This document shows, piece after piece, positions 2,662-26,194 of a stretch of DNA of 27,568 nucleotides. How positions within the stretch are numbered: the first letter of the stretch is position 1; the number at the start of each line of letters is the position of its first letter. Below the pieces are notes generated by a model. The model searched no databases and was not told where the DNA came from. It worked only from the letters and a program-made list of their open reading frames with translations. A program made the position numbers and the translations under genes. The DNA is from a virus: the IMG/VR virus record IMGVR_UViG_3300027985_000229, positions 1-27,568 of that record. The stretch is one strand, 5' to 3'.

Positions 2662-4065
2662 ATGGCCGTAGATATGACGAGTGGCGAGCGGGCCCTCTTT
2701 GGTTCGATGCGCGACAAGATTTTGCAGTATCGAATCCCGCTCGACCTTGAAGATAAGTATTACGACGGCGAGGCCCGCCTAGAGCAATTGGGCCTCGCTA
2801 TCCCGCCCGAGTTGCAATCGTTTACGGTGATTGCGAATTGGCCGCGTATCGCGGTGGACGGCCGGTGCGACCGGCTGGACGAAAAGGGCTTTCGTACGGC
2901 GAAGTCTGATATGGACGAATACCTGTGGGGGCTTTGGGTTGCTAATCGCATGCCCGAGAACGACCTCATGGCCCGAGCCGATTATGGCATTTTCGGGCGC
3001 TCGTTCCTATCGGTGGGCGTTTCCGACCGGGCGGGCGATAGCGCGCTTATCACCGTGGAGAGCCCGCGGCAAATCATGTGCGAGCGCGACCCTCGTACGG
3101 GCCGCACGGTCGCGGCGCTACGGCTCTACATGGGCGCGGACGATAGTTCCGAGGATGACCGCGCGACCTTTTACCTGCCGAATATCACTTATTGGCTAGA
3201 GTTGTCCCCGATGGGCTGGCAGGTTGTGAAGAGCAACCGGCACAATCTCGGCGAGGTGCCGGTTATTCCGGCATATCGCTCGCGGCGCTCGGCGATTCCG
3301 GCGTGGAATTCGTACAAGATGCAAGGAACGTCGGCAATGATCGACGTTATCCCGATTGCGGATTCGGCGGCTCGCAACCTTACCAACGTGCAGGTTGCGC
3401 AAGAGACGCACGCGGTTCCGGCTCGCTACGCTATCGGCGTGAGCAAGGGCGATTTTGTCGATTCCGAGGGGAACCCGCTACCCGCGTGGGAAGCCTATTT
3501 CGGCGCTATCTCGGCGACTGCGAACCCCAAGGCACAATTTGGGCAATTCTCGTCTAGCGATATGCGCAATTTCGAGACGATGCTCAACATGTACGCTCGG
3601 CAGGCGGCCGCGCTCGCGGTGATGCCGCCCGACTATTTCGGGCTACCGGCCGACGACGCGGCGAGCGCCGACGCTATCCGCTCGCGCGAGGCCCGGCTAG
3701 TCAAGCAGGTAGAGCGCGACCAAAAGGCGCTCGGCTACGCCCGAGCCGAGGCCGTGCGGCTCGCGGCAAAGTTGAGCGGAAAGACGCTACCGGCTACCGA
3801 CCGGGTGGAAACCCTTTGGTACGACGCCGGTACGCCGACGTTCGCGCAACGTGCCGACGCGGTACAAAAGTTGTGGAGCGCCACGAACGCGACCGGCGAG
3901 GCCCTGCTACCTACGCGCATGGCGCGCGAGGAATTGGGGTGGAGCCCCGAGCGCATCCAACGCGCCGAGGCGATGGACGCCGAGGCCCGCGCTCGTGCCG
4001 ACGAGTACCTACGCGACACGCCGCCGAACCCGCCCGAAGAGCCCGGCACCGACACTCAACCCTAA
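2662..4065 (+). CDS. Portal protein (SPP1 gp6-like)
   Basis: A 467-residue portal subunit, forming the ring at one capsid vertex through which DNA passes. It has the family pattern: an N-terminal RIPLDLEDKYYDG segment, an NWPRIAVD block followed by DRL, a mid-protein SPRQI/DPRTG region, and a C-terminal helical part with repeated Asp-Ala motifs (LPADDAASADAIRSREARL). AGGAGG at 2646-2651 supports ATG 2662 over TTG 2653. The last residues (TDTQP) and the stop codon fall inside the conserved 5' box of a dispersed 135-bp element, so this element forms the 3' end of the gene. Confidence 0.93.
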   Translation: MAVDMTSGERALFGSMRDKILQYRIPLDLEDKYYDGEARLEQLGLAIPPELQSFTVIANWPRIAVDGRCDRLDEKGFRTAKSDMDEYLWGLWVANRMPENDLMARADYGIFGRSFLSVGVSDRAGDSALITVESPRQIMCERDPRTGRTVAALRLYMGADDSSEDDRATFYLPNITYWLELSPMGWQVVKSNRHNLGEVPVIPAYRSRRSAIPAWNSYKMQGTSAMIDVIPIADSAARNLTNVQVAQETHAVPARYAIGVSKGDFVDSEGNPLPAWEAYFGAISATANPKAQFGQFSSSDMRNFETMLNMYARQAAALAVMPPDYFGLPADDAASADAIRSREARLVKQVERDQKALGYARAEAVRLAAKLSGKTLPATDRVETLWYDAGTPTFAQRADAVQKLWSATNATGEALLPTRMAREELGWSPERIQRAEAMDAEARARADEYLRDTPPNPPEEPGTDTQP

Positions 4066-4183
4066 ACGTCCATTTGGAACGTTAACATCGGCCGTCTCCC
4101 GCGTTTTGGGGACATACCCGCTGTACCCCTATCTCTTAGGGGGTCACTCGCGGGAGAGGGCCGTTTTAGAGCGTCTGAGAGGG
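4049..4183 (+). repeat. 135-bp structured element, copy A
   Basis: First of three full copies that align without a gap. The 5' box CCGACACTCAACCCTAAACG overlaps the portal stop codon. A small hairpin (AACGTCC/GGAACGTT) occupies 4065-4083. The long-range stem arms are 4089-4103 and 4149-4163, with 14 of 15 positions paired. The loop holds GCGTTTTGGGG, TACCCCTATCT and a small ACCCC/GGGGT hairpin (4125-4144). The 3' box GGGCCGTTTTAGAGCG ends in GAGAGGG, which serves as the ribosome site for the MuF-like gene at 4191. It could be a leader RNA, attenuator or terminator/promoter unit. Confidence 0.8.
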
Positions 4184-4190
4184 GGTGCCT

Positions 4191-5231
4191 ATGGCGGCGG
4201 TGCAGACGGTGCCGACGCTCACGCGTCAGTACGCGCTAGAGCAACGGCGGCTCTCGTTGCGAGCACAGCGCAAGATTGCGCAACTTTGGTACAGCGTGGG
4301 CCCCGATTTCGAGAACGGCTTTCTACGGGTGGCCCCGGAAATCTTGCGAATCATGAACGCGACGCAATTGCAAATCGCGAAGAATGCGCAAGAGTACATG
4401 CCCGAAATCACGCGCTTTACCGGCGCGGGCTCGCTTATGGGGGAATACTCGTTCGACCCCGCGGCGATGGTGGGCACGACGGGCGACGGGCTCACGAGCC
4501 CCGGCCTCGCGTACGGCTCGGTGACGCACACGAAAGACGCGCTCGGCGGCGGCATGAGCCTCGCGCAAGCGCGAGCGCGCGGCGGCGCATATCTCTCGAC
4601 GGCCGCGGAAACGCTGTTTGCCGATACCGGCCGGACATACGAGGCAATGGAAGGATTTTCGCATAAGGTCACCACGTACATTCGCGCGCTAACCCCGCCC
4701 TCGTGCGGCCGGTGCGCGATTATCGCGGGGCAACCGACCCGCGCGAGCGAGGCTTTCCAACGGCACCCCAAATGCGATTGTCACAATGTGCCGGTGGGCT
4801 CGGGCGAGGGCGCGGAATACCTCACCGACCCGCACGAATATCTCGCCGAATTGGATGGCCGCGGCGACGAGGCGGCGCTACGGAAGGCGCTCGGCTCGCA
4901 ATCGAACGTGGATGCGTGGCGCGATTACGGGGCCGACCCCTACGCGCTCGTGAACGGATATCGCGGCGGGCTCGCCCCGGCGCAAGTCTACGGCCGTAAT
5001 GTGAAGTACACGACCGAGGGAATGAGCCGCCGCGGAAATGCGGCGTGGCAAATGTCCCGGGTGCGCGAATTGTCGCGCGCCGCTGGCGCTCGCGAGGTGG
5101 GCATCGGCCCGCTCGGGCGCATTCCGAATGTCCCCCGTCTCATGCCTGAGAGCATTTTGGGATTGGGGCTATCAAGGGAAAAGACGGCCGAAATGCTAAA
5201 GGCTTTCGGTTGGCTAGGCCCGGTTGGATAA
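4191..5231 (+). CDS. MuF-like minor head (capsid morphogenesis) protein
   Basis: A 346-residue protein in the position of the phage Mu gpF / SPP1 gp7 family, a minor capsid protein bound to the portal inside the prohead. The C-terminal half has the family's cysteine pattern: SCGRC at C172/C175, then HPKCDCH at C195/C197, following a helical N-terminal half. No protease motif is evident, so a maturation-protease role is not claimed. It is the first gene after the 135-bp element; GAGAGGGGG directly upstream supports ATG 4191 over GTG 4185. Confidence 0.82.
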   Translation: MAAVQTVPTLTRQYALEQRRLSLRAQRKIAQLWYSVGPDFENGFLRVAPEILRIMNATQLQIAKNAQEYMPEITRFTGAGSLMGEYSFDPAAMVGTTGDGLTSPGLAYGSVTHTKDALGGGMSLAQARARGGAYLSTAAETLFADTGRTYEAMEGFSHKVTTYIRALTPPSCGRCAIIAGQPTRASEAFQRHPKCDCHNVPVGSGEGAEYLTDPHEYLAELDGRGDEAALRKALGSQSNVDAWRDYGADPYALVNGYRGGLAPAQVYGRNVKYTTEGMSRRGNAAWQMSRVRELSRAAGAREVGIGPLGRIPNVPRLMPESILGLGLSREKTAEMLKAFGWLGPVG

Positions 5232-5283
5232 CAGAAACCGCGAGGGCGCGACGCCCCCGCAATAACCCGCGATGGGAGAATAG

Positions 5284-5841
5284 ATGGCTGACGAGAATCC
5301 GGCCGGGGCACCCCCGCCCAATGGTGAGCCGAAGGGGGGCGAAGAGCCCCTAGCCGCGCCAGGGCTAGCCGCGCTCGCAAGCGAGCGAACCGCGCGCCAA
5401 GAGGCCGAGAAGGCGCTACGCGCCGTGCAGGCCGAGCGCGATGCCGCGGTGGCGAAGGCCGAGGGCCGCGAGGCAGAATATGCGGCCGAGGTTAAGGCTC
5501 GTGAGGAAATCGAGCGCCGCTTTAACGAGCGGATTATTCACACCGAATTGCGGGCCGCGGCCCGCGAACTAATGGCCGACCCCGACGACGTATTTGCATT
5601 CGTCAAGGTGTCGGATTTTGAGGTCAATGCCGATGGGGAGGTTGACGCGAAGGCGATTACGGAAGCGATTTCCGCGCTCGTCAAGCGTAAGCCCTATTTG
5701 GCCGCGCGACGCGAAGATGACCCCAACCAGCCCGGCCATATTGAGCCGGACCCGTCCCAAGGTGCTCGCACCCCGGGACACGACCCGCTAAATGGTGACG
5801 GGCTATTGAATGCCCTAACTAGCAAGTTGGGTATTCACTAA
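5284..5841 (+). CDS. Capsid scaffolding protein
   Basis: A 185-residue protein directly before the major capsid gene. It has a Pro/Gly-rich start, then a charged coiled coil of about 70 residues (heptad-like runs of Ala, Glu, Arg and Lys), then a DPDDVFAFVKVSDFEV segment and KPYLA, the usual pattern of scaffold proteins in actinobacterial siphoviruses. It would guide capsid assembly and then leave the prohead. GGGAG upstream supports ATG 5284. Confidence 0.87.
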   Translation: MADENPAGAPPPNGEPKGGEEPLAAPGLAALASERTARQEAEKALRAVQAERDAAVAKAEGREAEYAAEVKAREEIERRFNERIIHTELRAAARELMADPDDVFAFVKVSDFEVNADGEVDAKAITEAISALVKRKPYLAARREDDPNQPGHIEPDPSQGARTPGHDPLNGDGLLNALTSKLGIH

Positions 5842-5870
5842 AAACCCCTGAAAGGGAAAGGTAAAGGAAA

Positions 5871-6773
5871 ATGGCTATTACTGCCGCAACCAAGATGTCG
5901 GATTTCTCCGGCTTCCTGAATGCGGACGAGGCGGCCCCCTATTTCGCCGTCGCGCGTCAGAATTCGATTGCGCAACGGCTTTGCCGTCAGGTTCCGCTAT
6001 CCTACCGGGGCTCGCAAGTCCCGGTGGTCTCGACCAAGCCCGTTGCCGGGTGGGTCGCTGAGGGTGGGCAAAAGCCCGCTACCGCTGGTGCGATGGAACT
6101 TAAGTCCATCACCCCGAAGAAGTTGGCGGCTATCGCCGTCGTTTCGGCTGAGGTGGTCCGCGCCAACCCGGGCGGCTACATTCAGGAACTACGCGCCGAC
6201 ATTGGCGAGGCGTTCGCGCTCGCGTTCGATGCCGCCGCGCTTCACGGCACGAGCACCCCGTTTGGTGCTTCCAACTACATCGACGCGACCACGAAGGCCG
6301 TTGAGATTGGCACCGCGACCGCTTCGACCGGTGGTGTCTACGCCGACGTTGTTTCGGGCCTATCGGCCCTGGTCAACGACGGCAAGCGCCTTACCGGCTT
6401 CGCGTTCGACTCGGTGGCCGAGCCGCTGTTCCTGAACTCGGTTGACTCTCACGGCCGACCGCTGTTCGTGGACACCCCGCTAGCCGATGCGCCCGCGGTT
6501 ATCACGCCCGGACGGCTTATCGGCCGTCAAGCGTTCCTCGGCGATGGCGTCGCTTCCGGCGACGTTGTGGGCTACGGCGGCGACTGGTCGCAAGCCGTTT
6601 GGGGCACCGTGGGCGGTATCACCTACGACGTTTCGACCGAGGCGACCGTCACCATTAACGGCTCGCTCGTTTCGCTCTTCGAGAACAACCTCGTTGCGAT
6701 TCGTGCCGAGGCCGAGTACGGGTGGCTCGTCAACGACACCGCCGCGTTCGTCAAGTACAACAACGCTTCCTAA
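5871..6773 (+). CDS. Major capsid protein (HK97 fold)
   Basis: A 300-residue shell subunit. It follows the scaffold gene after a purine-rich ribosome site (AAAGGAAA). The sequence has the N-terminal FLNADEAAPYFA segment, the P-domain helix region (KLAAIAVVSAEVVRANPGG), DIGEAFALAFDAAALHG, and a C-terminal segment (NLVAIRAEAEYGW) typical of HK97-fold capsids. The N-terminus is short compared with HK97 itself because the scaffold is a separate protein. Codon use here shifts toward the C-ending codons expected of a highly expressed gene. Confidence 0.93.
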   Translation: MAITAATKMSDFSGFLNADEAAPYFAVARQNSIAQRLCRQVPLSYRGSQVPVVSTKPVAGWVAEGGQKPATAGAMELKSITPKKLAAIAVVSAEVVRANPGGYIQELRADIGEAFALAFDAAALHGTSTPFGASNYIDATTKAVEIGTATASTGGVYADVVSGLSALVNDGKRLTGFAFDSVAEPLFLNSVDSHGRPLFVDTPLADAPAVITPGRLIGRQAFLGDGVASGDVVGYGGDWSQAVWGTVGGITYDVSTEATVTINGSLVSLFENNLVAIRAEAEYGWLVNDTAAFVKYNNAS

Positions 6774-6802
6774 GCGGTTAGTTTAGGAAAGGGGGTGCGC
6801 CC

Positions 6803-7225
6803 GTGACTTATGCAAATCTCAGTGATGTGCAAACCCGTCTCGGGCGCACCGTCTCCGACGCATCGGAAGTCGCGCAAATTAACGCGTGGCTTTCCGATGC
6901 CGAGACGGTGATTACCGGACGAATTAGCAACCTCGTGGCGCTCGTTACCGCGGGAACAATTCCGCTCGCTACCGTTGTGATGGTCGAATGTCGTGCGGTT
7001 ATCCGCAAGATTAACAACCCGGACGGTAAGCAAAACGAGCGACTAGATGACTATTCATTCGGACTAAACCCGGACCAGGCTAAGGGCGAAATCTTCCTCA
7101 CCGATGAAGAGTGGGAAATGGTGACGCCCGACACGGGTTCGGCCGAGGCTTTCACGATTCGCCCGCGCGGAATGCGTGACCTATACGGCGAGTGGAGCCC
7201 CCCGGCATATTCTGAGGAATCGTGA
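6803..7225 (+). CDS. Head-to-tail adaptor
   Basis: A 140-residue protein directly after the capsid gene, where siphoviruses encode the adaptor that docks beneath the portal. The helical N-terminus (LSDVQTRLGRTVSDASEVAQINAWLSDAE) and the central VECRAVIRKINNPDG helix fit the gp15/Gp19-type connector fold, and the C-terminal tail is aromatic and Pro-rich. GTG 6803 is preferred, with AGGAAAGGGGG a few bases upstream. It ends in a GTGA overlap with the next gene. Confidence 0.78.
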   Translation: MTYANLSDVQTRLGRTVSDASEVAQINAWLSDAETVITGRISNLVALVTAGTIPLATVVMVECRAVIRKINNPDGKQNERLDDYSFGLNPDQAKGEIFLTDEEWEMVTPDTGSAEAFTIRPRGMRDLYGEWSPPAYSEES

Positions 7226-7614
7226 GCGCGATAAGCGCCGCTCGCGCGGGCCGTGTGCTCGCCGAGCGGAACATGCTCGACACGGTGACGATTGTCAGGA
7301 AGTCCGAGACATTCAACGAAACGACCGGCGACTACGATATCGAAAACGAGTCGATTTATGCCGGGCGTGCAAGAGTACAGACATACGAGCCGCAAACCAC
7401 GATGCCCGAAGCGGGCGGCCATACTTACATGGTGCAAACGTATTCGGTGCATATTCCCGTGGGCTCGGCTGACGTTGCTATCGGCGACGTTATCACGGTG
7501 ACCGCGGCGGCAATTGAGCCCAATTTGGTTGGGCGCGAATACCGCGTGGTGGGCCTACTGCACAAGTCTTTGCAGACCGCCTATCGTTTGCAGGTCACGG
7601 AAATTAGCGGATAA
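7222..7614 (+). CDS. Head closure (stopper) protein
   Basis: A 130-residue protein starting at GTG 7222, overlapping the previous stop as GTGA. It is predicted to be mostly beta: DTVTIVRKSE, an YAGRARVQT strand and VGREYRVVGLLHKSLQTAYRLQV at the end. This is the pattern of the small beta-barrel stopper proteins (DUF6093-like) placed between the adaptor and the tail completion protein in actinobacterial phages. The function is inferred from pattern and gene order. Confidence 0.75.
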   Translation: MSAISAARAGRVLAERNMLDTVTIVRKSETFNETTGDYDIENESIYAGRARVQTYEPQTTMPEAGGHTYMVQTYSVHIPVGSADVAIGDVITVTAAAIEPNLVGREYRVVGLLHKSLQTAYRLQVTEISG

Positions 7615-7623
7615 GGGGGGCGC

Positions 7624-8399: not shown

Positions 8400-8415
8400 A
8401 AAGTGAGAAAACCAA

Positions 8416-9628: not shown

Positions 9629-9969
9629 ACGAATTCGGTGACCGCGAGGGCCTTTTGCTTTCGTTGCGAACGGCCCGCGCTTGGGGAAAGACCCCGACCG
9701 AATACGAGAAAATGTCGAATCGTGATAAGCAATTGTGCGAAATGCTCGTGCTACACGATGACGCGCTACTCACCCGGTACGGGGTGCGAGCCGACCAGGC
9801 TGGCGACCCCGACACCGAGGGGTGGTGGATAGTTGAGACGACAACCGACTACGCCGCGAAGGCGGTAGCCGAGTGGGAAGCCGACAACGAGACGGGGCCC
9901 GGCGAGACCGTAACGGTGCGGCTCGACCCCGACTATATCCCACGGCATCGCGGCGATAGACGCCGCTAG
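9622..9969 (+). CDS. gpT extension of the frameshifted tail chaperone (gpGT)
   Basis: This segment adds 115 residues to the first 201 residues of the gpG frame, giving a fusion of about 316 residues that would bridge the tape measure and tube subunits. The conserved entry EFGDREGLLLSLRTARAW and the acidic middle are typical. It probably has no start codon of its own; TTG 9655 has no ribosome site. The stop TAG (9967-9969) is immediately followed by copy B of the 135-bp element. Confidence 0.87.
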   Translation: MLDEFGDREGLLLSLRTARAWGKTPTEYEKMSNRDKQLCEMLVLHDDALLTRYGVRADQAGDPDTEGWWIVETTTDYAAKAVAEWEADNETGPGETVTVRLDPDYIPRHRGDRRR

Positions 9970-10104
9970 CCGACGCTCGACCCGTAACGCGCCACAGGAC
10001 GCCCGGAAACGGCCCTGTGGCGCGTTTGCGTGCGTGGGCGCTTGTACCCCTACCTGTGGCACCCCTACTCGCGTTAGAGGGCCGTTTTAGAGCGATTGAG
10101 AGGG
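9970..10104 (+). repeat. 135-bp structured element, copy B
   Basis: It has the same length and offsets as copies A and C. The 5' box CCGACGCTCGACCCGTAACG is followed by a perfect 13-bp hairpin (9986-9998 with 10014-10026) ending in TTT, a terminator-like structure. The alternative long-range stem 10010-10024 with 10070-10084 pairs at 14 of 15 positions, two by G-U, and shares its 5' arm with the hairpin. TACCCCTACCT occupies the loop. The internal ACCCC/GGGGT hairpin of A and C is lost here. GAGAGGG at the 3' end serves as the ribosome site for the tape measure gene. Confidence 0.82.
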
Positions 10105-10113: not shown

Positions 10114-12876
10114 ATGGCCGACCGTAGCATCGTCGTGCGCCTACGCGCCGAGATTTCAGGATACCGCCGAGCGATGGCCGACGCCTCGCGCGACGCGACG
10201 CGCTTTGCCGCGACGCACGACGCCGCGGGCGGCAAGATTGACACGGCCACGGGCCGCATGGTGCGTAGCGCGAAGGTCAACGGTAGCGCGTGGCGAACGG
10301 CTGGCATGACGCTAACCGCGTTCGGCGTGGCGGGCGTTGCCGCGCTCGGGCTCACGGCTAAGGCCGCGATTGATTGGGAAACCGCGTGGGCGGGTGTCCT
10401 AAAGACCGTTGAGGGCACGCCCGAGGAATTGGACCGGCTGGAAAAGTCGCTCCACGATATGAGTTTGCGGCTACCCGCGAGCGCCGAGGAAATTGCAGGC
10501 GTCGCCGAGGTTGCCGGACAACTAGGAATTAAGGTCAACGACGTAGCGAAATTCACCGAGACAATGGTGATGCTCGGCACTACGACGAACCTAAGCGCGG
10601 AAGAGGCCGCGGTTTCGCTCGCTCGCATGGTCAATATCATGGGGACGAGCGTCGAGGATATCGACCGCATGGGCGCGGCGATTGTCGATTTGGGTAACAA
10701 TTCGGCTACCACCGAGTCTGAAATCGTGGATATGTCTACGCGCCTCGCCGCGGCTGGCGAGCAGGCGGGGCTATCCGAGGCCGACGTGCTGGCATTCGCG
10801 GCGGCGCTTACCTCGGTGGGCGTTTCGGCCGAGGCTGGCGGCACCGCGCTTTCTAAGGTATTCACGAGCATTAAGGATGCGACGCGCGACGGCGGCGACG
10901 ACCTAGAGACTTTCGCGAAGGTCGCGAATATGTCGGTTGACGATTTCGTATCGCTATTCCAAAAGGATGCCGCGGGCGCGATTAACGCGTTCATCGTGGG
11001 CATGGGCCGCATGGAAGATGCGGGACAATCGACCACGGGCGTTTTCAAGCAACTGCACCTCACCGATATGCGCCTAAAGCGCTCGATTTCCTCCCTCGGT
11101 TCCGCGGGCGAATTGCTCGGCGATTCTATCGAATTGTCGAACCGCGCGTGGGAAGAGAATTCGGCGCTCGTCATTGAGGCGCAAAAGCGCTACGAGACGA
11201 CGGCTAGCAAGATTCAAATTGCCAAGAATGCGATTAACCTTGTCGCAATCCAAATTGGCGAGAACCTGCTACCGGCTATCGCGGGCGCGGCTTCCGGCGC
11301 GGCATCGTTGGCTAAGACGTTCTCGGAATTGCCGGACCCGCTGAAAAAGGTGCTCGGCACTTTCGGCGGTGTCGTTTCGATGCTCTCGCTTGGCGCTGGT
11401 GCATTCCTGATTCTGATTCCTCGCGTCATTGAGACGAAAAAGGCGCTCGACGTGCTGGCGCTCACGTTCCCGAAGGTGGCCCGTGCGGGCCGCATCGCGG
11501 GCGCGAGCCTCGGCGTTATCGGCGCGGCTCTCACCGTAGCGGTGGCGGTATTCGGCTACTTTGCCAATAAGGCGGGCGAGGCTAACCAAAAGGCCGAGGA
11601 ATTGGCCGACACGCTGGACGAGGCTTCCGGCGCGATGACGACCCTAACCCGCGAGACCGTCTACAATGAATTGGTTTCGAGCAAGGCTGTTGACGCGGCT
11701 AAGCAATTGGGCATCGGGCTCGACACGATTACCGACGCGGCGCTCGGCAATGCCGACGCTATGGCCGTCGTTAATCGGGCGATTGACGAGGGCGAAACCC
11801 GCGTTGCTAAGTTGGTTGACCAATACGGCGCGAGCGCCGAGGGCGCGGTTGAAACGACCGACGCCATTACGGTATTGCGCCAGACTATCGGCGACCAAAA
11901 CGAATCGCTCGCGCTCGCTAAGGAAAAGTGGGTTGACCATAAGGCGGCGATGGGCGATGCCGAATCTAGCACCGATAGCCTAACCGGCGCGATTACCGAC
12001 GCAACCGGCGCAACCGACGATTACGCCGACGCGCTGGAAGAAGCCCTCGGCGAACTAGACGAGATGGCGCAAAAGACCCTCTCGGCTCGCGAGGCTTCGC
12101 GTAAGTTTGAGGGCGCTATTGACGACGCCGCGGCGGCCGTCAAGAATAACGGCAAAACGCTCGATATCCACACGCAAAAGGGCCGCGATAACCAGGCGGC
12201 GCTAGACGATATCGCGGATTCGACATGGGCCCTTATCGACGCGTTCCGCGAGAACGGCGCATCGGTAAAGACGCTAGAGGGCAAGATGAAAACCGGCCGC
12301 GCCGAATTCATTCGGGCGGCCGAGGCTATGGGCATGGGCTCGGATAAGGCTAAGGCTTTGGCCGACAAGATGGGGCTAATTCCTCATAATGTCCACACGG
12401 CCGTATCGGTTTCGACCGGGCAGGCGAGCGCGACGGTAAATGCGTTCCTCGCTAAGTATCGCTCGACCACCCTAACAATTCCGTTTAAGACGGTTGAGAG
12501 TGCGCCGCCGAGTTTCTTTGGCAAGGCGGCCGGTGGTCGAATCTACGGGCCCGGCACCGAGACGAGCGACAGTATCCCGGTGCGACTCTCTCGCAACGAG
12601 CACGTTCTCTCGGCTCGCGAGGTGCGCGGGCTCGGTGGTCACGCGAACGTGGAGCGTATCCGCGCCGCGGCTCGGCGAGGGTTCGCCGATGGCGGGCACC
12701 TCGGTTCGTCCGGGGGCAACGTCACGGTAAACCCGCACCTAGACGGCATGACGAGCCGCGACCTGGCGATGCTCGCCGAGCAAATCGGCGCGGCCAACGC
12801 CGAGGCGGCGGCCCGCATCGTCTACGGCGCGCTACGGCAAGCCGCTCGCGAAGTTGGACAGGGGGCGCGTAGGTAA
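10114..12876 (+). CDS. Tape measure protein
   Basis: A 920-residue protein that sets tail length; at about 1.5 angstroms per residue it predicts a tail near 140 nm. The N-terminal third (IDWETAWAGVLKTVEGTPEE, SAEEIAGVAEVAGQLGI, TNLSAEEAAVSLARM, GGTALSKVF) is the TP901-type tape measure core. A hydrophobic region (FGGVVSMLSLGAGAFLILIP; GASLGVIGAALTVAVAVFGYF) provides the membrane-active part. Long helical stretches follow, with a typical C-terminal GGRIYGPGTETSDSIPVRL and FADGG. ATG 10114 is preferred over TTG 10096 because GAGAGGGTGG lies between them. Confidence 0.94.
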   Translation: MADRSIVVRLRAEISGYRRAMADASRDATRFAATHDAAGGKIDTATGRMVRSAKVNGSAWRTAGMTLTAFGVAGVAALGLTAKAAIDWETAWAGVLKTVEGTPEELDRLEKSLHDMSLRLPASAEEIAGVAEVAGQLGIKVNDVAKFTETMVMLGTTTNLSAEEAAVSLARMVNIMGTSVEDIDRMGAAIVDLGNNSATTESEIVDMSTRLAAAGEQAGLSEADVLAFAAALTSVGVSAEAGGTALSKVFTSIKDATRDGGDDLETFAKVANMSVDDFVSLFQKDAAGAINAFIVGMGRMEDAGQSTTGVFKQLHLTDMRLKRSISSLGSAGELLGDSIELSNRAWEENSALVIEAQKRYETTASKIQIAKNAINLVAIQIGENLLPAIAGAASGAASLAKTFSELPDPLKKVLGTFGGVVSMLSLGAGAFLILIPRVIETKKALDVLALTFPKVARAGRIAGASLGVIGAALTVAVAVFGYFANKAGEANQKAEELADTLDEASGAMTTLTRETVYNELVSSKAVDAAKQLGIGLDTITDAALGNADAMAVVNRAIDEGETRVAKLVDQYGASAEGAVETTDAITVLRQTIGDQNESLALAKEKWVDHKAAMGDAESSTDSLTGAITDATGATDDYADALEEALGELDEMAQKTLSAREASRKFEGAIDDAAAAVKNNGKTLDIHTQKGRDNQAALDDIADSTWALIDAFRENGASVKTLEGKMKTGRAEFIRAAEAMGMGSDKAKALADKMGLIPHNVHTAVSVSTGQASATVNAFLAKYRSTTLTIPFKTVESAPPSFFGKAAGGRIYGPGTETSDSIPVRLSRNEHVLSAREVRGLGGHANVERIRAAARRGFADGGHLGSSGGNVTVNPHLDGMTSRDLAMLAEQIGAANAEAAARIVYGALRQAAREVGQGARR

Positions 12877-18945: not shown

Positions 18946-18947
18946 CC

Positions 18948-19451: not shown

Positions 19452-19669
19452 GGATTCGGATTCCGAAGGTAGCGACCGCGCTGGTGAAGGCGGCCGGAAT
19501 GCGCGCGTTGCGCACGTTCCTACAGGTGCTAATCCCGGCGCTCGGCGCTGGCGCTATCACCGAACTAGACTACATGGGCGGGCTCGGCATCGCGGCTGGC
19601 GCGGCGCTTATCTCGTTCCTGCAAGGCGTGCTCGTGGGGCTCCCCGAGGCTCCGGCCGACGAAACTTAA
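19448..19669 (+). CDS. Holin (r1t-like)
   Basis: A 73-residue membrane protein starting at GTG 19448 in a GTGA overlap, with AAGGAGGTG upstream. A basic N-terminus is followed by MRALRTFLQVLIPALGAGAI and, after a short turn, GIAAGAALISFLQGVLVGL, giving two hydrophobic segments and a short acidic tail. This matches small r1t-type holins, which open the membrane so that the endolysins reach the wall. Position right after the two lytic enzymes supports it. Confidence 0.85.
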   Translation: MRIRIPKVATALVKAAGMRALRTFLQVLIPALGAGAITELDYMGGLGIAAGAALISFLQGVLVGLPEAPADET

Positions 19670-20122: not shown

Positions 20123-22765
20123 ATGTCCGAAACGCTGTATGCAACCTCGCATATCACGGGCTCTTGCTCGACCCCCGCGAACGCGAACGGGTCGCCCGAT
20201 GGCACATTCACGACCGACACGAGCAATACCTCGTGGGCGTCGCGATGGGCTATCGGCGACCCGTCCGGCGCGCTCGACACCGTAACGCAAACCATCACGG
20301 TTCGGGCCCGCAAGGATAGCGCGAGCGATTCGGGCCTACCGACGCTCACCGCGACGCTCTACGAAAACGGCAGTAGCGTCGCCACACTCTTTACGGCACA
20401 AGGTGTCCCGACCGATGGCTCGTATGTTGACCTGCAAGGGACGTTCAACGGTTCCGCGATTTCCGACGCGAGCGCGATTGAGGTCTACCTAGCCGCGACC
20501 GGTCACGGCACGGGCGGCAACAAGCGCACCATTCAGGTTGATTCCATCACGCTTACGGCGACCGTCGCCGCAATGACCCCCATCACGGGCACGAGCGCGC
20601 TCGACGGCCCGACCGGCGCGGCCGAGGCTACCGGCGCAATGGTTGTCCCCATCACGGGCACCGCGGCGGCCGATGGGCCCGCGGGCTCGGTGGAGCAGGC
20701 GGGCGGGTACGACACCCCGCAATTTACCAACATTGCCACAAACCCCAATTTTGAGGGCTCCGACCTTACGAATTGGCAACTAGACTCCACGACGCTATCG
20801 CGTCAACAAACCGACGTTCACCAGGGCGATTACAGCGGACACGTAGCCTATCCCGATACTCAATACTCGGCCGTCTGGTCGAAGGCCGATGCGTCTACGC
20901 TGTACCCGCTCGACCCGGACCAGGATTACTACCTGGGATTTTGGGGCAACTTCCCGAGCGGGCAACAACTCTGGTTTTCCGTCTACCAATACGATGCCTC
21001 GCTCGCATACCAGGCCCTCGCGCAAATCACGGCCGAGGGCACGGGCGCGTGGACGTTCTACGAGGTGGGGCAATTCACCCCGGCGAGCACGGCCGTATGG
21101 GGCAAAATTCTATGGGGCCGCCCGAATGCCACGGGCGCGTTCAACATGGAATTCGACCAAATCATGCTCGGCCCGGTCAACATTCTTGGCACGGGCGACG
21201 CCGACGCCGCCCCCGGCGCGGCGAGCGCGACGGGCGACGTAGCGGGGCAAGAGGACGAATACCTGTCGGGCTATGTGTCCGGCAATGTGCCGACGCCGAC
21301 CGCGGCGCTCGGGGCCCCCGATGGCTCGTTCACGACGCCGACCACGGCCGCGTGGGATTGCATGTGGGAGGTTGCCGACCCGGCCGGTACGCTCGACACG
21401 TCCGGCACCATCACATGCGTTTTCACCATGCGAAAGTCTGGCACGGGTGGAGCGCCGACCGTTAACGCGTTCGCCTATGATGGCACCACCTACGGCAAGG
21501 TGATTCTATCCACCATCGGCGCACCGGCTGACACTACGGATACGTTCGAGGTGCAAGGCACCTACGCGGCCTCGTACACGCCGACCGCGGCCGATATCCG
21601 GCTCTACATGACCGGCACCACGAGCGCGAGCACGACCATCCAGGTTGACGCGGTGCGGTTCGTCCTGCCCCTGGTGACGAGCAACGACGTTACCGGCACG
21701 GCCGCGCTCGACGGCGCGGCTGGCGCGGCGAGCGCTTCCGGTTCCATCACGGTTCCCGAGACGAGCGGCACAGCCGATGCGGACGGGCCCCCGGGCTCGG
21801 CATCGGCGAGCGGCACCGCGGCCCCCGTTGAGACGAGCGGCACGGCCGCGCTCGACGGGGTGCCCGGCTCGGCATCGGCCTCGGGCTCGTACGACGTGCC
21901 GAGCACGGACGGCACGAGCGCGCTCGACGGCTCGCCCGGCTCGGCGAGCGCGAGCGGCGCGTTCCTCACGTCCGGCACGGGCGAGGCTGACGGCCCGACC
22001 GGCTCGGCATCGGCAACGGGTGACACCGGGGCCCCGACGCTCGACGGCTCGGCGGCCCTCGCGGGCTCGCCCGGCTCGGCGAGCGCCACCGGCTCTATCA
22101 CGGTCCTAAGCACGAGCGGCACCGCCGACGTGGGCGGCCTCGTGGGCTCGGCGTGGGCCGACGCAACCGGCGCAACCGCGGGCACCGCGAGCGCGACCGG
22201 GGCCCCCGGCTCGGTGGTCGCGAGCGGTTCGCTCACGGTCCCGAGCACGACGGGCTCGGCATCGTTCGACGGCTCGACCGGCTCGGCATCGGCGACCGGC
22301 ACCAGCGGCGCGGGCGTCATCTCGGGCACCGGCTCGCTCGACGCGAGCGCGGGCACCGCGAGCGCGACCGGCGACATTTCGACACCTAGCGTCACCGGCT
22401 CGGCGACGACGGCCGGAATCGTGGGCGCGCTCGTCGCGCTCGGCGAGGCTGGCCCGGTCACGACGAGCGGCACGGCGACGGCCGCGGGCCTCGCGGGCTC
22501 GGTGGTCGCGAGCGGCGGCACGAGCGTTCCGACGCTCACCGGCTCGGCGGCCCTCGTGGCGGCCGTGGGCGGCGCGGCCGCGTACACGCTACAGGCCGAT
22601 GACCACACATTCACGGCGACGCTCGGCGCGCGGCTCTACGGGGCGACGCTCGGCGAGCGCCACTACGCGGCCGAGGCTCGGCGCGCATGGCTAGCGGCCC
22701 TGGGGTCGCGACGACACGAGGCCGACGAATTGGCTCGGCGATTTGAGGTAACCGCATGGCTGTAA
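20123..22765 (+). CDS. Large repeat-containing fibre / surface protein
   Basis: An 880-residue probable virion fibre. Residues 1-150 and about 377-515 are two copies of one beta-sandwich domain (shared PDGTFTT/PDGSFTT, a W-x3-W, LDT, RK, and TIQVD near the end), an internal duplication. Residues about 203-350 resemble a carbohydrate-binding module (NPNFEGSDLTNWQ; YYLGFWGNF). From about 520 to 816 lie some 13 imperfect 20-25-residue repeats (SGTAALDG, then GSASASG), with three more between the domains. The C-terminus is charged. It is highly Ser/Thr/Gly/Ala-rich. Confidence 0.72.
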   Translation: MSETLYATSHITGSCSTPANANGSPDGTFTTDTSNTSWASRWAIGDPSGALDTVTQTITVRARKDSASDSGLPTLTATLYENGSSVATLFTAQGVPTDGSYVDLQGTFNGSAISDASAIEVYLAATGHGTGGNKRTIQVDSITLTATVAAMTPITGTSALDGPTGAAEATGAMVVPITGTAAADGPAGSVEQAGGYDTPQFTNIATNPNFEGSDLTNWQLDSTTLSRQQTDVHQGDYSGHVAYPDTQYSAVWSKADASTLYPLDPDQDYYLGFWGNFPSGQQLWFSVYQYDASLAYQALAQITAEGTGAWTFYEVGQFTPASTAVWGKILWGRPNATGAFNMEFDQIMLGPVNILGTGDADAAPGAASATGDVAGQEDEYLSGYVSGNVPTPTAALGAPDGSFTTPTTAAWDCMWEVADPAGTLDTSGTITCVFTMRKSGTGGAPTVNAFAYDGTTYGKVILSTIGAPADTTDTFEVQGTYAASYTPTAADIRLYMTGTTSASTTIQVDAVRFVLPLVTSNDVTGTAALDGAAGAASASGSITVPETSGTADADGPPGSASASGTAAPVETSGTAALDGVPGSASASGSYDVPSTDGTSALDGSPGSASASGAFLTSGTGEADGPTGSASATGDTGAPTLDGSAALAGSPGSASATGSITVLSTSGTADVGGLVGSAWADATGATAGTASATGAPGSVVASGSLTVPSTTGSASFDGSTGSASATGTSGAGVISGTGSLDASAGTASATGDISTPSVTGSATTAGIVGALVALGEAGPVTTSGTATAAGLAGSVVASGGTSVPTLTGSAALVAAVGGAAAYTLQADDHTFTATLGARLYGATLGERHYAAEARRAWLAALGSRRHEADELARRFEVTAWL

Positions 22766-23019
22766 CGATTCCCCGCGAGTCTGACGAACTAGTGCCCGTC
22801 GTGGTGACGGTAGACGGCACCGCGGTTTCGTCCGGCGTGAAGTACGCGATTGTAGCGATGGGCACCAGGCCCACGACGTTTAGCGATGTATCGCTCGACG
22901 GCGACACGACCCTAGTCCCCGTGTCGGGGCTTGACCCCGGCTCGTACACGGTATGGATTCAGGTAACGGCCGGTTCCGAAGTCGCCGTGCTCGACGCGGG
23001 CCCGCTCTACATCACTTGA
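22756..23019 (+). CDS. Small beta-rich virion-type protein
   Basis: An 87-residue protein whose ATG lies inside the last codons of the fibre gene. It is a short beta-sandwich (ELVPVVVTVDGTAVSSGVKY; GSYTVWIQVTAGSEVAVLDAG) of the kind found as single-domain tail or fibre companions. It is the last gene before a strong terminator and so ends the late operon. No exact family was recognised. Confidence 0.62.
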   Translation: MAVTIPRESDELVPVVVTVDGTAVSSGVKYAIVAMGTRPTTFSDVSLDGDTTLVPVSGLDPGSYTVWIQVTAGSEVAVLDAGPLYIT

Positions 23020-23025
23020 CCCCCG

Positions 23026-23059
23026 CCCCCGGCTCCCCTCGTGGGGGCCGGGGGTTTTT
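23026..23059 (+). terminator. Intrinsic terminator ending the late operon
   Basis: CCCCCGGC (23026-23033) pairs with GCCGGGGG (23047-23054), the stem continuing through CCC/GGG to a short loop, and TTTTT follows (23055-23059). This is a textbook rho-independent terminator just after the stop at 23019. Confidence 0.92.
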
Positions 23060-23078
23060 CGCGTACCCCATAAAACTA

Positions 23079-23088
23079 TTAGCGCTAA
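23079..23088. promoter_or_regulatory. Palindrome TTAGCGCTAA
   Basis: A perfect 10-bp palindrome lies 11 bases upstream of the first accessory-gene promoter. A related sequence, GTTAGCGTTAAC, is at 27420-27431 in the right-hand control region. The placement suits an operator or activator site. Confidence 0.4.
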
Positions 23089-23099
23089 CAACTTTGGGG

Positions 23100-23151
23100 T
23101 TGCGCTCGGGCTCGCGCGGGTGCATTCTGGTGGTGAAAGAAGGTGAGCACG
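23100..23151 (+). promoter_or_regulatory. Promoter/start cassette 1
   Basis: TTGCGC (23100-23105), a 17-base spacer, then CATTCT (23123-23128), then GGTGGTGAAAGAAGG and the ribosome site leading to ATG 23152. The leader would be only about 16-20 bases. This is one of five similar cassettes in the right-end region. Confidence 0.65.
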
Positions 23152-23439
23152 ATGACCGCGACCCGGACCAGGAAGGTTACCGAGGAAGGCCGTTGCCGCG
23201 ACTGTGGCATGTGGGTTCGCTGGACCGAGGGGCGTTACGGCTGGTATCTGCAAGAGACCACCGCCCCCTACGAGAACGGCGCTCGCTACGGCCGGGGCTC
23301 GCACTCCCAGGCGGTTTGCGACCAGCGTTCGAACCGCGAGGCTCGCGAGGCTTACGAGCGTGAGTGCGCGGTTTACGCCGAAGCCGAGCGTTCGATGGCT
23401 TACGCCGACGCCTACGGCATCGACCCGCTCGACTACTAG
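23152..23439 (+). CDS. Small CxxC accessory protein
   Basis: A 95-residue hypothetical protein. A CRDC pair at residues 15-18 followed by WVRWTEGRYGWYL suggests a half zinc finger; further Cys at QAVCDQ and EREC could complete a metal site. The rest is charged and helical, with a Tyr/Asp-rich end. ATG 23152 is preferred over in-frame GTG 23143 because the latter lies within the ribosome site. It is the first gene of the accessory block and has its own promoter. Confidence 0.7.
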   Translation: MTATRTRKVTEEGRCRDCGMWVRWTEGRYGWYLQETTAPYENGARYGRGSHSQAVCDQRSNREAREAYERECAVYAEAERSMAYADAYGIDPLDY

Positions 23440-23485
23440 ACGCACAAAAGCCCCGGGCGACCCGGCCCCGGGCCCGCGGCCCCCG

Positions 23486-23511
23486 GCCGGTGGCGATTCG
23501 CTCCCACCGGC
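23486..23511 (+). terminator. Hairpin downstream of first accessory gene
   Basis: GCCGGTGG (23486-23493) and CCACCGGC (23504-23511) form an 8-bp stem with a 10-base loop in a very G+C-rich intergenic stretch. There is no T-tract, so terminator function is uncertain. Confidence 0.4.
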
Positions 23512-23543
23512 AGGGCTGGCCCTGAATTTCATATCGAACCACT

Positions 23544-23563
23544 AGGAAAGGAAGGCGAGCACG
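23544..23563 (+). promoter_or_regulatory. Start-associated sequence without clear promoter
   Basis: AGGAAAGGAAGGCGAGCACG before ATG 23564 is the translation half of the repeated cassette. Here GCG replaces the in-frame GTG of the other copies, showing that the ATG is the conserved start. I see no convincing -35/-10 pair upstream. Confidence 0.6.
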
Positions 23564-23794
23564 ATGCGCTCGACCGTTAACCAGAACCACCGCCGCGGCG
23601 ACTCGTGGACCGACGCCGAGGGCCGGTGGCACGTTGCCACCCGCGACCGCGACGAGGCCGTGCTCGAAATCGCGCTCGTCATGCAAGAGCGCGGCGAGGC
23701 GACCGACCACGACGAGGCGGTATCGTACGCCGAGGGCTACGTGCACGAATGCCTCGGCCGTCACGACGTGTACTGCGAAAACAGCGACCACTAA
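23564..23794 (+). CDS. Small acidic accessory protein
   Basis: A 76-residue hypothetical protein with the repeated start-associated sequence in front. It begins basic (MRSTVNQNHRRGDSW), continues with WHVATRDRDEAVLEIALVMQ and ends His/Cys/Asp-rich (YVHECLGRHDVYCENSDH), where His and Cys could bind metal. No family was recognised. The next gene starts 12 bases after its stop. Confidence 0.65.
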   Translation: MRSTVNQNHRRGDSWTDAEGRWHVATRDRDEAVLEIALVMQERGEATDHDEAVSYAEGYVHECLGRHDVYCENSDH

Positions 23795-23806
23795 GGGGCA
23801 GGAATC

Positions 23807-24028
23807 ATGACCGGGGACATTGGGCGAGAAATCGAATATGGGCTGGCGCGCGAGCGCGTGGGCCTCGCGGCGGCCGACCTGGCGAAAGCGCGACGGGCGT
23901 ACAGCATCGCGCAATGCGGGACCGACGCGACCGAGCAGGCCCTCGCGGGCATTTGGCTCGTTACCGCGATGGAAGAGCACGAGGAAGCGCACGCGGCCTA
24001 CCGCGAGCGCGCGGGTGAAAGCGCGTGA
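23807..24028 (+). CDS. Small helical accessory protein
   Basis: A 73-residue, almost wholly helical protein (ARERVGLAAADLAKARRAYS; AGIWLVTAMEEHEEAHAAY), probably a short coiled coil or helical hairpin. Ribosome site AAGGGGCAGG precedes ATG 23807. Its stop overlaps the GTG of a 53-codon gene (GTGA), so they form one translational unit with the gene at 23564. Function unknown. Confidence 0.62.
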   Translation: MTGDIGREIEYGLARERVGLAAADLAKARRAYSIAQCGTDATEQALAGIWLVTAMEEHEEAHAAYRERAGESA

Positions 24029-24186
24029 CGTACCCGCAAAACGAGCCCGACCCCATCGGGGCGAAATGTAAATCGGTGGCCGAGTTGTGCCAGGCCCTCG
24101 CGTGGGAAGATGCCGACGCCGAGGGGCTGGCGCTTGCGCTTGACACGCTCGCGAACGCGCGTATCGTTGGTGGTGAAAGGAAGTGA
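24025..24186 (+). CDS. 53-residue coupled small protein
   Basis: A short reading frame starting at GTG 24025 in a GTGA overlap, a coupling used elsewhere in this phage. It encodes MTYPQNEPDPIGAKC, then an Ala/Leu/Glu-rich helix (VAELCQALAWEDADAEGLAL), and ends at TGA 24184. The promoter and ribosome site of the next gene lie inside its last 16 codons, so its C-terminus (RIVGGERK) may be dictated by that cassette. Coding status rests on coupling and codon pattern. Confidence 0.5.
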   Translation: MTYPQNEPDPIGAKCKSVAELCQALAWEDADAEGLALALDTLANARIVGGERK

Positions 24187-24191
24187 GCACG
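24140..24191 (+). promoter_or_regulatory. Promoter/start cassette 2
   Basis: A consensus TTGACA (24140-24145), a 16-base spacer and TATCGT (24162-24167), then TGGTGGTGAAAGGAAG and ATG 24192. It lies within the 3' end of the preceding small gene. It has the best -35 of the set. Confidence 0.7.
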
Positions 24192-24482
24192 ATGACCACC
24201 ACGATTAGGGCCCAAGTCACCAGCAAGGGCATTACCGTTCACGCGGAATACTCGGGCGGCCCGTACGTCGAACTCTCGTACGGCTACGCCGGGGCCCCCG
24301 CATCGCACCCGCTGGAAGTTATCAACGTCTACGACTACGCAACCGGCACCATCGACCCCCGCACCGCGACCCGCAAGGGCGTGCGCGAGATTGTCGCCGA
24401 ATGGCTCGCCGACACCACGGACCCCGAGCAGGGCGGCGACCCCGACGCCCTCGCCCGCTACATGGCGAACGCCGCTTGGTAA
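24192..24482 (+). CDS. Accessory protein, beta-rich N-terminus
   Basis: A 96-residue hypothetical protein: TTTIRAQVTSKGITVHAEYS and YVELSYGYAG suggest a small beta sheet, followed by a helical C-terminal half (VREIVAEWLADTTDPEQ; DALARYMANAAW). It has its own promoter cassette upstream and a strong terminator 11 bases after the stop, making a single-gene transcription unit. ATG 24192 is preferred over in-frame GTG 24183. Confidence 0.68.
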   Translation: MTTTIRAQVTSKGITVHAEYSGGPYVELSYGYAGAPASHPLEVINVYDYATGTIDPRTATRKGVREIVAEWLADTTDPEQGGDPDALARYMANAAW

Positions 24483-24492
24483 GTCCCACCCG

Positions 24493-24525
24493 CCCCCGGC
24501 GCAATCCCGCGCCGGGGGCTTTTTT
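24493..24525 (+). terminator. Intrinsic terminator
   Basis: CCCCCGGCGC (24493-24502) and GCGCCGGGGG (24509-24518) form a perfect 10-bp stem with loop AATCCC, followed by CTTTTTT. This is a strong rho-independent terminator for the gene ending at 24482. Confidence 0.94.
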
Positions 24526-24529
24526 GCGC

Positions 24530-24557
24530 TTGCATTCGTCGGCTGGCGCGGTACTCT
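24530..24557 (+). promoter_or_regulatory. Promoter 3 with a long leader
   Basis: TTGCAT (24530-24535), a 16-base spacer and TACTCT (24552-24557), followed by GGTGGTG as in the other cassettes. Unlike them, the ribosome-site part is absent here, and about 157 bases separate the -10 from the next ATG (24715). Confidence 0.6.
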
Positions 24558-24714
24558 GGTGGTGGACAAAGAAAACACGCGGGGACTGCCCCGCCGCCCC
24601 CCACTCGGTAGGCGGTTGGACGAAAGCGACGCAAGTAGGCGACTGTCAGGGTGGGACGTAGCCCAAGGGCCGTGCAGAATATGGACACACGTTGACACAT
24701 CGAAGGGTGAAGCC
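24558..24714 (+). other. 157-base leader or untranslated region
   Basis: The stretch contains several possible hairpins: GCGGGG-ACTG-CCCCGC, CCGCC/GGCGG around an ACTCGGTA-containing loop, and GCCCAAGGGC. It is open in the frame of the downstream gene from GTG 24558 or 24561, so an N-terminal extension is possible, but a good ribosome site (GAAGGGTGA) sits before ATG 24715. It is best read as a 5' leader that may fold, or a small RNA. Confidence 0.4.
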
Positions 24715-25014
24715 ATGCCGCTTCCCGAGGTAGACGAAAGCATGACCGCCGCGCACGAGGCCGCCGAGACGGCATACCGAGCGCTCGTGGCCGCAATCAA
24801 TCGCGCCGCGTGCGACTATCGCGCCGCGTGGGCCGCGTGGAACAGCGCCGAGCCGGGGACGCCCGCGCACTCGGTAGCCGTTCACCGGCTGGAAGCGGCC
24901 GACCGGTCGCAACGAGAGTTGCGGGTGATTTGTGACCACGCCCGAACGCTACGCGCCGACACGAGGAAGAGCGAGCGCATGGGCCGCCCGATGGCCGCCC
25001 GTCGCCGACACTAG
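24715..25014 (+). CDS. Helical accessory protein
   Basis: A 99-residue, mostly alpha-helical protein (HEAAETAYRALVAAINRAAC; SVAVHRLEAADRSQRELRVI) ending in a basic tail (RMGRPMAARRRH). The pattern suggests a helical hairpin with a nucleic-acid-binding tail, but no family was recognised. GAAGGGTGA precedes ATG 24715. It is served by promoter 3 and followed by a hairpin terminator 12 bases after its stop. Confidence 0.65.
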   Translation: MPLPEVDESMTAAHEAAETAYRALVAAINRAACDYRAAWAAWNSAEPGTPAHSVAVHRLEAADRSQRELRVICDHARTLRADTRKSERMGRPMAARRRH

Positions 25015-25026
25015 CGAGGGGAGATT

Positions 25027-25052
25027 GCCGCCCGGCTTGCGCCGGGCGGCTT
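25027..25052 (+). terminator. Hairpin terminator overlapping the next promoter
   Basis: GCCGCCCGGC (25027-25036) and GCCGGGCGGC (25041-25050) form a perfect 10-bp stem with tetraloop TTGC, followed only by TTCC. The loop supplies the first bases of the -35 box of promoter 4, so termination and initiation share the same DNA. Confidence 0.65.
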
Positions 25053-25089
25053 CCGCGCGTAACTTTGGGAGTGAAGGAAGGTGAGCACG
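25037..25089 (+). promoter_or_regulatory. Promoter/start cassette 4
   Basis: TTGCGC (25037-25042), a 17-base spacer and TAACTT (25060-25065), then TGGGAGTGAAGGAAGG and ATG 25090. The -10 departs from the other cassettes, but spacing and the downstream start sequence are kept. Confidence 0.55.
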
Positions 25090-25377
25090 ATGACCGCCAT
25101 TCGAAACACTGTAGACGAGCGAAGGGCCGATGCCCTTACCCGCGCGCAAGCCGCCGCGCTCGTGGCGCTTCGCGATTGGGACGCCCGGCACCCGGGCCGC
25201 TCGGTTGAGGCCCGCGACATTGGCGCGAGCGCCGCGGCCCTCGCGGCGCTTATCCGCGGCGGCATGGTTGCCCGGCCGGACACGATGGGGCAGGCATACG
25301 GTTGGGACCGCGTGCGTCGCTACCTCATCACGAACCGCGGCCGCAACGTCGCGATGGTACTTGACGAAAGGGCGTGA
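25090..25377 (+). CDS. Possible winged-helix protein
   Basis: A 95-residue protein with a helix-turn-helix-like layout: RAQAAALVALRDWDARHPGR, then ARDIGASAAALAALIRGGMV and a beta hairpin-like RRYLITNRGRNVAMVL. This resembles a small winged-helix DNA-binding domain such as MarR-type, so it could regulate the accessory genes. The assignment is by pattern only. ATG 25090 is preferred over GTG 25081. The stop overlaps the next start. Confidence 0.6.
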   Translation: MTAIRNTVDERRADALTRAQAAALVALRDWDARHPGRSVEARDIGASAAALAALIRGGMVARPDTMGQAYGWDRVRRYLITNRGRNVAMVLDERA

Positions 25378-25622
25378 GGAAAATGACCACCACCAGGCGC
25401 GATGCCTACGTGAAGATGTATTGCCGCGAGCGGCTACGCCACATGGCCGATGCCGCCGACGCCGAGGGCATGGCGCTCGCGCTCGTGTACGCGATGCCCG
25501 GGGCTCGCATCCCGCGCGCCCGGCTCGCCGAGTGGACGCGCGACGCCGAAAGCCTCGTGCAAATTGAGGTTGAGGCCCGCAACGCGGCCGCCCGCCTCGC
25601 GCGCGAAGGGTACGGCTCGTGA
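25374..25622 (+). CDS. Small accessory protein
   Basis: An 82-residue hypothetical protein starting at GTG 25374 in a GTGA overlap, or at ATG 25383, whose N-terminus (MTTTRR) resembles those of neighbouring proteins. Neither has an ideal ribosome site. It is mostly helical (YVKMYCRERLRHMADAADAE; IEVEARNAAARLAREG) and basic at the start. Translation is probably coupled to both neighbours; its own stop overlaps GTG 25619. Function unknown. Confidence 0.6.
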   Translation: MRKMTTTRRDAYVKMYCRERLRHMADAADAEGMALALVYAMPGARIPRARLAEWTRDAESLVQIEVEARNAAARLAREGYGS

Positions 25623-26059
25623 ACGCCCGGCTATGCCGCGAGTGCGGCGCATCGTTCACCCCCGAGCCGAAGAGGGGCCGCCCCCCGGCTCGGTGCCCCG
25701 CGTGCCGGGGTGAGGCCCCCCGCCCGGCCGAGCGCTACCGCCGCGGCGACGTGGTGCCCGGTTGGGGCGAAGTTACCGGCCGCGCCGATGGCGACGGCTC
25801 GACTACGCTGGAATTCACGCGCGAGACCGAGCACGGCACCGTCATTCAGCGGCCGACGTTCCGCGGCGGCGAGCGCGTGGAGCCCCCGAGCGACCTCGTG
25901 GACGAGTACGCGCAAGCGTGCATAGTTGTAGAGCAAGCCCTCGCCGAATTGGAGAGCGCCGAGCACGGCGGCGACGAGCGCCGGTTGCGCGAGGCGTGGA
26001 CGCGCTACGCACGAGCGGCCGGATACCGCGGCGGCTTATCCGTCAGAATGCGCGGGTAA
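25619..26059 (+). CDS. Zinc-ribbon accessory protein
   Basis: A 146-residue protein starting at GTG 25619 within the previous stop. The N-terminus holds CRECGASFTP and, after a basic Pro-rich linker, CPAC: a four-cysteine zinc ribbon of about 25 residues. A beta-rich middle (GDGSTTLEFTRETEHGTVIQ) and a helical end (VVEQALAELESAEHGGDERR) follow. The ribbon suggests nucleic-acid or protein binding. Copy C of the 135-bp element begins right after its stop. Confidence 0.68.
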   Translation: MNARLCRECGASFTPEPKRGRPPARCPACRGEAPRPAERYRRGDVVPGWGEVTGRADGDGSTTLEFTRETEHGTVIQRPTFRGGERVEPPSDLVDEYAQACIVVEQALAELESAEHGGDERRLREAWTRYARAAGYRGGLSVRMRG

Positions 26060-26194
26060 CCGACACTCGACCCTAAACACGCCACCAGCGGCCCGTTTCC
26101 GGGCCGCTGACGCGTTTTGGGGATGCACCCGCTATACCCCTATCTCTCCGGGGGTCTCTCGCGTTAGAAGGCCGTTTTAGAGCGTCTGAGAGGG
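26060..26194 (+). repeat. 135-bp structured element, copy C
   Basis: The 5' box CCGACACTCGACCCTAAACA is followed by a perfect 10-bp hairpin (26086-26095 with 26100-26109, loop TTTC) and GACGCGTTTT. The competing long-range stem 26100-26114 with 26160-26174 pairs at 12 of 15 positions, one by G-U. The internal ACCCC/GGGGT hairpin is present (26136-26155). The 3' box AGGCCGTTTTAGAGCG ends in GAGAGGG, but no start codon follows closely; promoter cassette 5 comes next. The copy therefore works, if at all, without a directly attached gene. Confidence 0.82.

Follow-up and report, generated by a model that had tools for sequence, protein, structure and literature searches.

A 135-bp intergenic element repeated at gene boundaries of an actinobacteriophage-like contig, a candidate operon-boundary cassette

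Results

Gene context

The window analysed here is the whole of an IMG/VR contig of 27,568 bases (64% GC), which is probably incomplete. Its left part carries HNH, small terminase, large terminase (812-2647) and portal (2653-4065) genes, followed by a MuF-like protease gene (ATG 4191, to 5231; a match to phrog_1522) and by scaffold, major capsid and tail genes; the contig also has a tape measure gene (ATG 10114 to 12876), a gene for an amidase and, in the right arm, a large number of small genes, and all genes identified on it lie on the + strand. A megablast-level search gave no match to any known phage. The host is probably an actinobacterium. The nearest phages infect Actinobacteria: by TerL the closest are Arthrobacter and Gordonia phages at about 55% identity, the capsid is 65% identical to that of Arthrobacter phage ArV2, and the identity of the major capsid protein (MCP) to those of relatives reaches 71%.

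Two further observations concern the contig itself. The gene at 20123-22765, for which there was no PHROG match, contains many degenerate repeats of ~24 residues (about 72 bp; TSGTAxxDGxxGSASASG) at 20588-22517. The contig ends, 1-46 on the left (GTTGCGTAAATACGAATTACGCAAC) and 27403-27500 on the right (GTTGCGTAATTCG), hold related sequence, the right one being rich in AT (44% GC), which suggests control or terminal sequences near a real genome junction.

Copies of the element

Four stretches of the contig belong to one sequence family:

4049-4183, + strand: copy 1, between the portal gene (ends 4065) and the MuF-like protease gene (ATG 4191)
9970-10104, + strand: copy 2, preceded by the final ORF of the tail-chaperone region (ends 9969) and followed by the tape measure gene (ATG 10114)
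26060-26194, + strand: copy 3, 3' of the ORF at 25619-26059, with a sigma-70-like promoter shortly downstream
27485-27549, + strand: copy 4, partial, limited to columns 64-128 and to the middle and 3' boxes, stopping 19 nt short of the contig end

The initial annotation described three ungapped copies of equal length, and the coordinates, lengths and alignment proved exact: copies 1 to 3 align over 135 positions at 63-74% pairwise identity (1 and 3, 100/135; 2 and 3, 91/135; 1 and 2, 85/135), with the landmarks at the offsets given there when counting starts from zero. Because E-values for these copies are 5e-9 or lower, both in a self-BLAST of the window (8e-24, 1e-16 and 5e-9) and with nhmmer (3e-40 to 6e-37), chance is excluded as the source of their similarity. 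Three is the right number for full copies, but the partial one had been overlooked; it is detected by nhmmer at E = 9.7e-12 (about 1e-11) and by a covariance-model match of 23.6 bits, is ungapped with its boxes spaced as in the full copies, and has no 5' box, hairpin or ribosome site. The family is thus known from four copies on a single contig.

All four copies are intergenic and share one orientation, and the 12-mer CGTTTTAGAGCG is present exactly in each of them and nowhere else in the window. Similarity among the full copies has sharp limits, CCGAC at the start and GAGAGGG at the end. In copies 2 and 3 the first base directly follows the upstream stop codon (the stops end at 9969 and 26059), and copy 1 includes the portal stop codon. 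As had been noted at the outset, copies 1 and 2 end in the ribosome sites of the MuF-like and tape measure genes, the SD-like GAGAGGG lying just before ATG 4191 and ATG 10114; no start codon adjoins the 3' box of copies 3 and 4. Since the contig end is taken to be near the genome junction, our guess is that copy 4 is placed before the late operon.

Anatomy of the unit

Each full copy opens with a 5' box (columns 1-14, CCGACRCTCRACCC), after which a variable part leads to the left arm of an inverted repeat (columns 41-55; CGCGTTT occupies columns 52-58). A middle box (columns 76-88, TACCCCTATCTCT) is followed by a variable spacer of constant length and then by a nearly invariant 3' box (columns 99-135, CTCGCGTTAGAGGGCCGTTTTAGAGCGTCTGAGAGGG), which in copies 1 and 2 runs into the ribosome site of the MuF or tape measure gene. 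Columns 41-55 and 101-115 make up the imperfect inverted repeat, of 15 bp with its arms always 45 nt apart; a strong local 5' hairpin in copies 2 and 3 also involves its left arm:

4089-4103 (left arm) and 4149-4163 (right arm), + strand: inverted repeat of copy 1, 14/15 pairs
10010-10024 (left arm) and 10070-10084 (right arm), + strand: inverted repeat of copy 2, 14/15 pairs
26100-26114 (left arm) and 26160-26174 (right arm), + strand: inverted repeat of copy 3, 12/15 pairs
9986-10026, + strand: terminator-like 5' hairpin of copy 2 (fold z = -3.35; 0.3% of shuffles as stable)
26079-26115, + strand: terminator-like 5' hairpin of copy 3, then TTTT (fold z = -5.08; 0/300 shuffles as stable)

The summed score of the inverted repeat is 40/45 pairs, against a maximum of 38 in 400 column shuffles. 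The copy 2 hairpin has its 3' arm in common with the inverted repeat and is followed by a short T run. An intrinsic terminator calls for a stable GC-rich hairpin and a U run after it; copies 2 and 3 have a significant hairpin with 3-4 U, but a pattern scan listed neither. The variable hairpins of the initial annotation hold for these two copies; in copy 1 the 5' half is no more stably folded than its shuffles and has no significant hairpin.

The element is non-coding. A coding leader peptide (LYPYL....SR*, in one frame) was ruled out by phase and synonymous tests: the best candidate frame scored 7 synonymous against 5.6 expected (fraction 0.34) and is broken in the copies. The likeness of GTTTTAGAGC to a CRISPR repeat was also set aside, as only 10 nt are common and the continuation differs.

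Promoters and a second repeat family

None of the copies was found to contain a sigma-70-like promoter, so that any promoter within the element would need another specificity. The promoter previously described as following copy 3 is indeed there:

26208-26235, + strand: sigma-70-like promoter TTGACT-16-TATTCT, directly downstream of copy 3 and part of the GGTGGTGAAGGAAGGTGAGCACGATGACC repeat family

This second, start-associated family (GGTGGTGAAGGAAGGTGAGCACGATGACC) occurs at 23129-23157, 24169-24197, 25067-25095 and 26236-26264, and more weakly near 25347, with 4 copies at <=3 mismatches against 0 expected. Two of its copies are preceded by sigma-70-like TTGAC-16-TATCGT/TATTCT, and the family looks like a true SAS-like set of promoter and RBS for right-arm genes.

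Searches for homologs

No occurrence of the element was found in 50,697 phage records; by blastn the best phage match had E = 5 and plasmids gave nothing. In Rfam the window had no match at gathering score, the copies themselves giving chance-level matches only. Exact searches of IMG/VR with parts of the 3' box returned 24 matches for a 15-mer, 3 for GTTTTAGAGCGNNTGAGAGGG and 2 for CTCGCG..GTTT, all with unrelated flanks, and 0 for two stricter patterns; a similar search of 84,980 genomes returned 2, again with unrelated flanks. There was no homolog by nhmmer over 143 fetched loci and no convincing one by covariance model over 89 protein-related loci, where the best match among relatives (L075, E = 0.63) lies inside the scaffold coding region. 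The Rfam and covariance-model comparison that the initial annotation had suggested thus yielded neither a family nor a relative. The lack of Rfam, phage or plasmid matches, the fixed length and the recurrence at gene boundaries support its view that this is a reused element that is neither a known transposon nor a simple promoter repeat.

In 32/32 relatives in which both could be placed, the portal gene overlaps the MuF gene or lies no more than 4 bp from it, whereas 125 nt holding copy 1 separate the portal stop from the MuF ATG here; we therefore consider the element to have been acquired in this lineage. Conservation at the corresponding junctions of related phages, by which the initial annotation proposed to judge a functional family, was not seen, but because the phages compared are only remotely related (about 55% identity in TerL, at most 71% in MCP) the absence points to a lineage-specific gain and not to a lack of function.

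Discussion

We favour, at a probability of about 0.42, a reading in which the element is a regulatory cassette, present between genes in several copies, that marks off transcription units from one another and combines a terminator, a phage-specific promoter or operator and a ribosome site; it would then probably act as a phage-specific switch, setting apart and restarting gene expression. The 5' part (box, hairpin and short T run) would most likely stop or weaken transcription from the upstream gene, and the middle and 3' boxes would most likely be a phage-specific promoter or operator, read by a factor that the phage might encode or modify, with the last bases providing the ribosome site of the next gene where one exists. 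The ungapped length, the conserved boxes parted by variable spacers of constant length and, in copies 2 and 3, a 5' hairpin whose stability greatly exceeds that of shuffles argue for such a cassette. As copy 4 keeps only the middle and 3' boxes, with their spacing unchanged, these look like a core that does not depend on a start codon, and since relatives have no gap between portal and MuF, it appears that 125 nt were gained and kept in a compact operon. Against the cassette are the absence of sigma-70-like promoters from the copies, the lack of a significant 5' hairpin in copy 1, T runs of just 3-4, the sigma-70-like promoter that copy 3 already has downstream, and the small sample of four copies on one incomplete contig.

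It is possible, although on balance we think it unlikely, that the element is instead a cis-acting structured RNA leader, an attenuator or antitermination element in which columns 41-55 would pair either with the 5' arm, as the local hairpin, or with the 3' box (101-115, then UUUU), giving two mutually exclusive folds before late genes. The inverted repeat outscores all 400 shuffles, and complementarity between the upstream segment and the 3' box is beaten by 0/500 shuffles in each of copies 1 and 2 and by 2.6% in copy 3; there is also a compensated change (GG/CC in copy 1 against UU/GG or GA in copies 2 and 3), and the best 15-mer score is 40 on the + strand against 38 on the minus. The minus strand, considered as the RNA strand because of one G-U site in a closing stem, was dropped since the long helix pairs better on +. 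The inverted repeat lends weak support to the leader family proposed in the initial annotation, but the covariation is weak, with only two pairs changed on both sides and 44/500 control shuffles doing equally well. The long helix is predicted with probability 0.92 in copy 1 but 0 in copies 2 and 3, and copy 1 lacks the fold competition. Copy 4, without a 5' half, has no significant pairing (a closing stem and long helix were abandoned there, as complementarity was within that of shuffles, 0.19-0.24), and neither it nor copy 3 is attached to a start. The more ambitious version, a new class of phage RNA switch, seems improbable to us; in it one segment would pair with either the upstream arm or the invariant 3' box, each fold ending in a U run, and this bistable attenuator, recurring ahead of MuF, the tape measure and other operons, would time the late genes. 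As the 3' box is more conserved in sequence than pairing alone would require, and no start codon adjoins it in copies 3 and 4, our judgement favours sequence-specific recognition.

There is a small chance that the copies represent a small non-coding, MITE-like element that reached gene junctions by moving or being duplicated and has no essential role. It would account for the element-free portal-MuF junction of all relatives and for the sharp ends, which are partly complementary (GACRCTC / GAGCGTC). However, these terminal repeats are short and imperfect, no target-site duplication was visible by eye in the flanks read, and copy 4 shows similarity without one end; pairwise divergence of 26-37% with zero indels points to constraint, and the copies always point one way and end at stop codons or ribosome sites. 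Slightly less probable still is an mRNA processing or stability site, with an RNase III-type long stem cutting the late transcript between genes, for although copy 1 has a long stem (probability 0.92), copies 2 and 3 have strong local stems and the placement is intergenic like that of T7 processing sites, the stem varies in position, copy 4 has no significant one, and double-strand cutting needs no sequence conservation, yet the 3' box is the most conserved part.

Many phages of Actinobacteria carry repeated motifs between their genes, and what these do has been a question since 2011. The element described here is longer and strictly conserved in length, brings a hairpin, an inverted repeat and a ribosome site together, and lies inside the virion-gene operon, at a junction that is gapless in relatives; because of this length, composite build and placement, it is a compact test object for the way in which late transcription is split and timed in such phages. 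As an RNA switch, should that reading prove true, it would represent a new class of regulator.

Comparison with known repeat systems

When each of the relatives over 8 kb was compared with itself, Gordonia phage Ewald and Streptomyces phage Dubu were the only ones to show intergenic repeats, the sequences of which are unrelated. Ewald (L060) has a 77-bp intergenic element in two copies of 82% identity (6179-6255 and 40909-40985), which parallels ours in its two placements, ahead of the scaffold gene and close to the right end, and in a conserved core (AGTTATCCACAGGCATACTGA) followed by a variable hairpin, but differs in sequence, length and a visible -10-like CATACT. In the intergenic gaps of Dubu (L061) a number of motifs recur, among them TTGAC.CGACTCAATTGAGTCG-like sites upstream of several genes and, at 19634 and 37224, a pair of 136 bp. 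The stoperators of cluster A mycobacteriophages are 13-bp repressor sites, repeated and oriented, in short intergenic gaps. Our element is likewise repeated, oriented and intergenic; stoperators are also mentioned in work on cluster K (PMC3203893).

The SAS/ESAS-like and other repeats of Microbacterium phages (clusters EF, EC, EG and EI) are, like the element, conserved, intergenic and upstream of starts, with cluster-specific sequence, and one EC-cluster copy sits between MuF-like and protease genes (PMC7302621). They differ in being 13-30 bp motifs of another consensus in 5-12 copies, with no ungapped 135-bp composite (PMC7302621); the EF SAS consensus GGGAAAGGACCCC has 8 matches against 9.38 expected, none of them in the copies.

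A close parallel is with the SAS and ESAS of cluster K mycobacteriophages, which are also multi-copy, intergenic and of one orientation, with a ribosome-site motif before starts and an imperfect inverted repeat upstream (PMC3203893; PMC11373665), and which can include the upstream stop codon. Pope et al. (2011) favoured the ESAS as DNA-binding or promoter sites, more likely to bind protein than to form hairpins, as the mismatches seen between the arms are not of a kind that would preserve pairing (PMC3203893). In Adephagia 90-91 a terminator-like hairpin comes first, then the inverted repeat of the ESAS, which has a putative promoter, and last the SAS ribosome motif (PMC11373665); the parts that we propose for the element stand in this order too, which speaks for the cassette. 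The dimensions differ, the SAS being 13 bp and the ESAS inverted repeat 17 bp with a spacer mostly of 4-13 bp, against 15 bp and 45 nt here; SAS/ESAS lie among non-structural genes, whereas two copies of the element precede virion genes, and the sequences are different. The SAS consensus GGGATAGGAGCCC has 7 matches in the window at up to 3 mismatches, against 9.15 expected, with none in the copies. Since neither this consensus, nor the short ESAS spacer, nor the SigA-like hexamers that ESAS hold are found in the copies, the element is not a member of that family, and the best reading, by analogy, is that it would work as the SAS/ESAS motifs of actinophages do while standing outside them.
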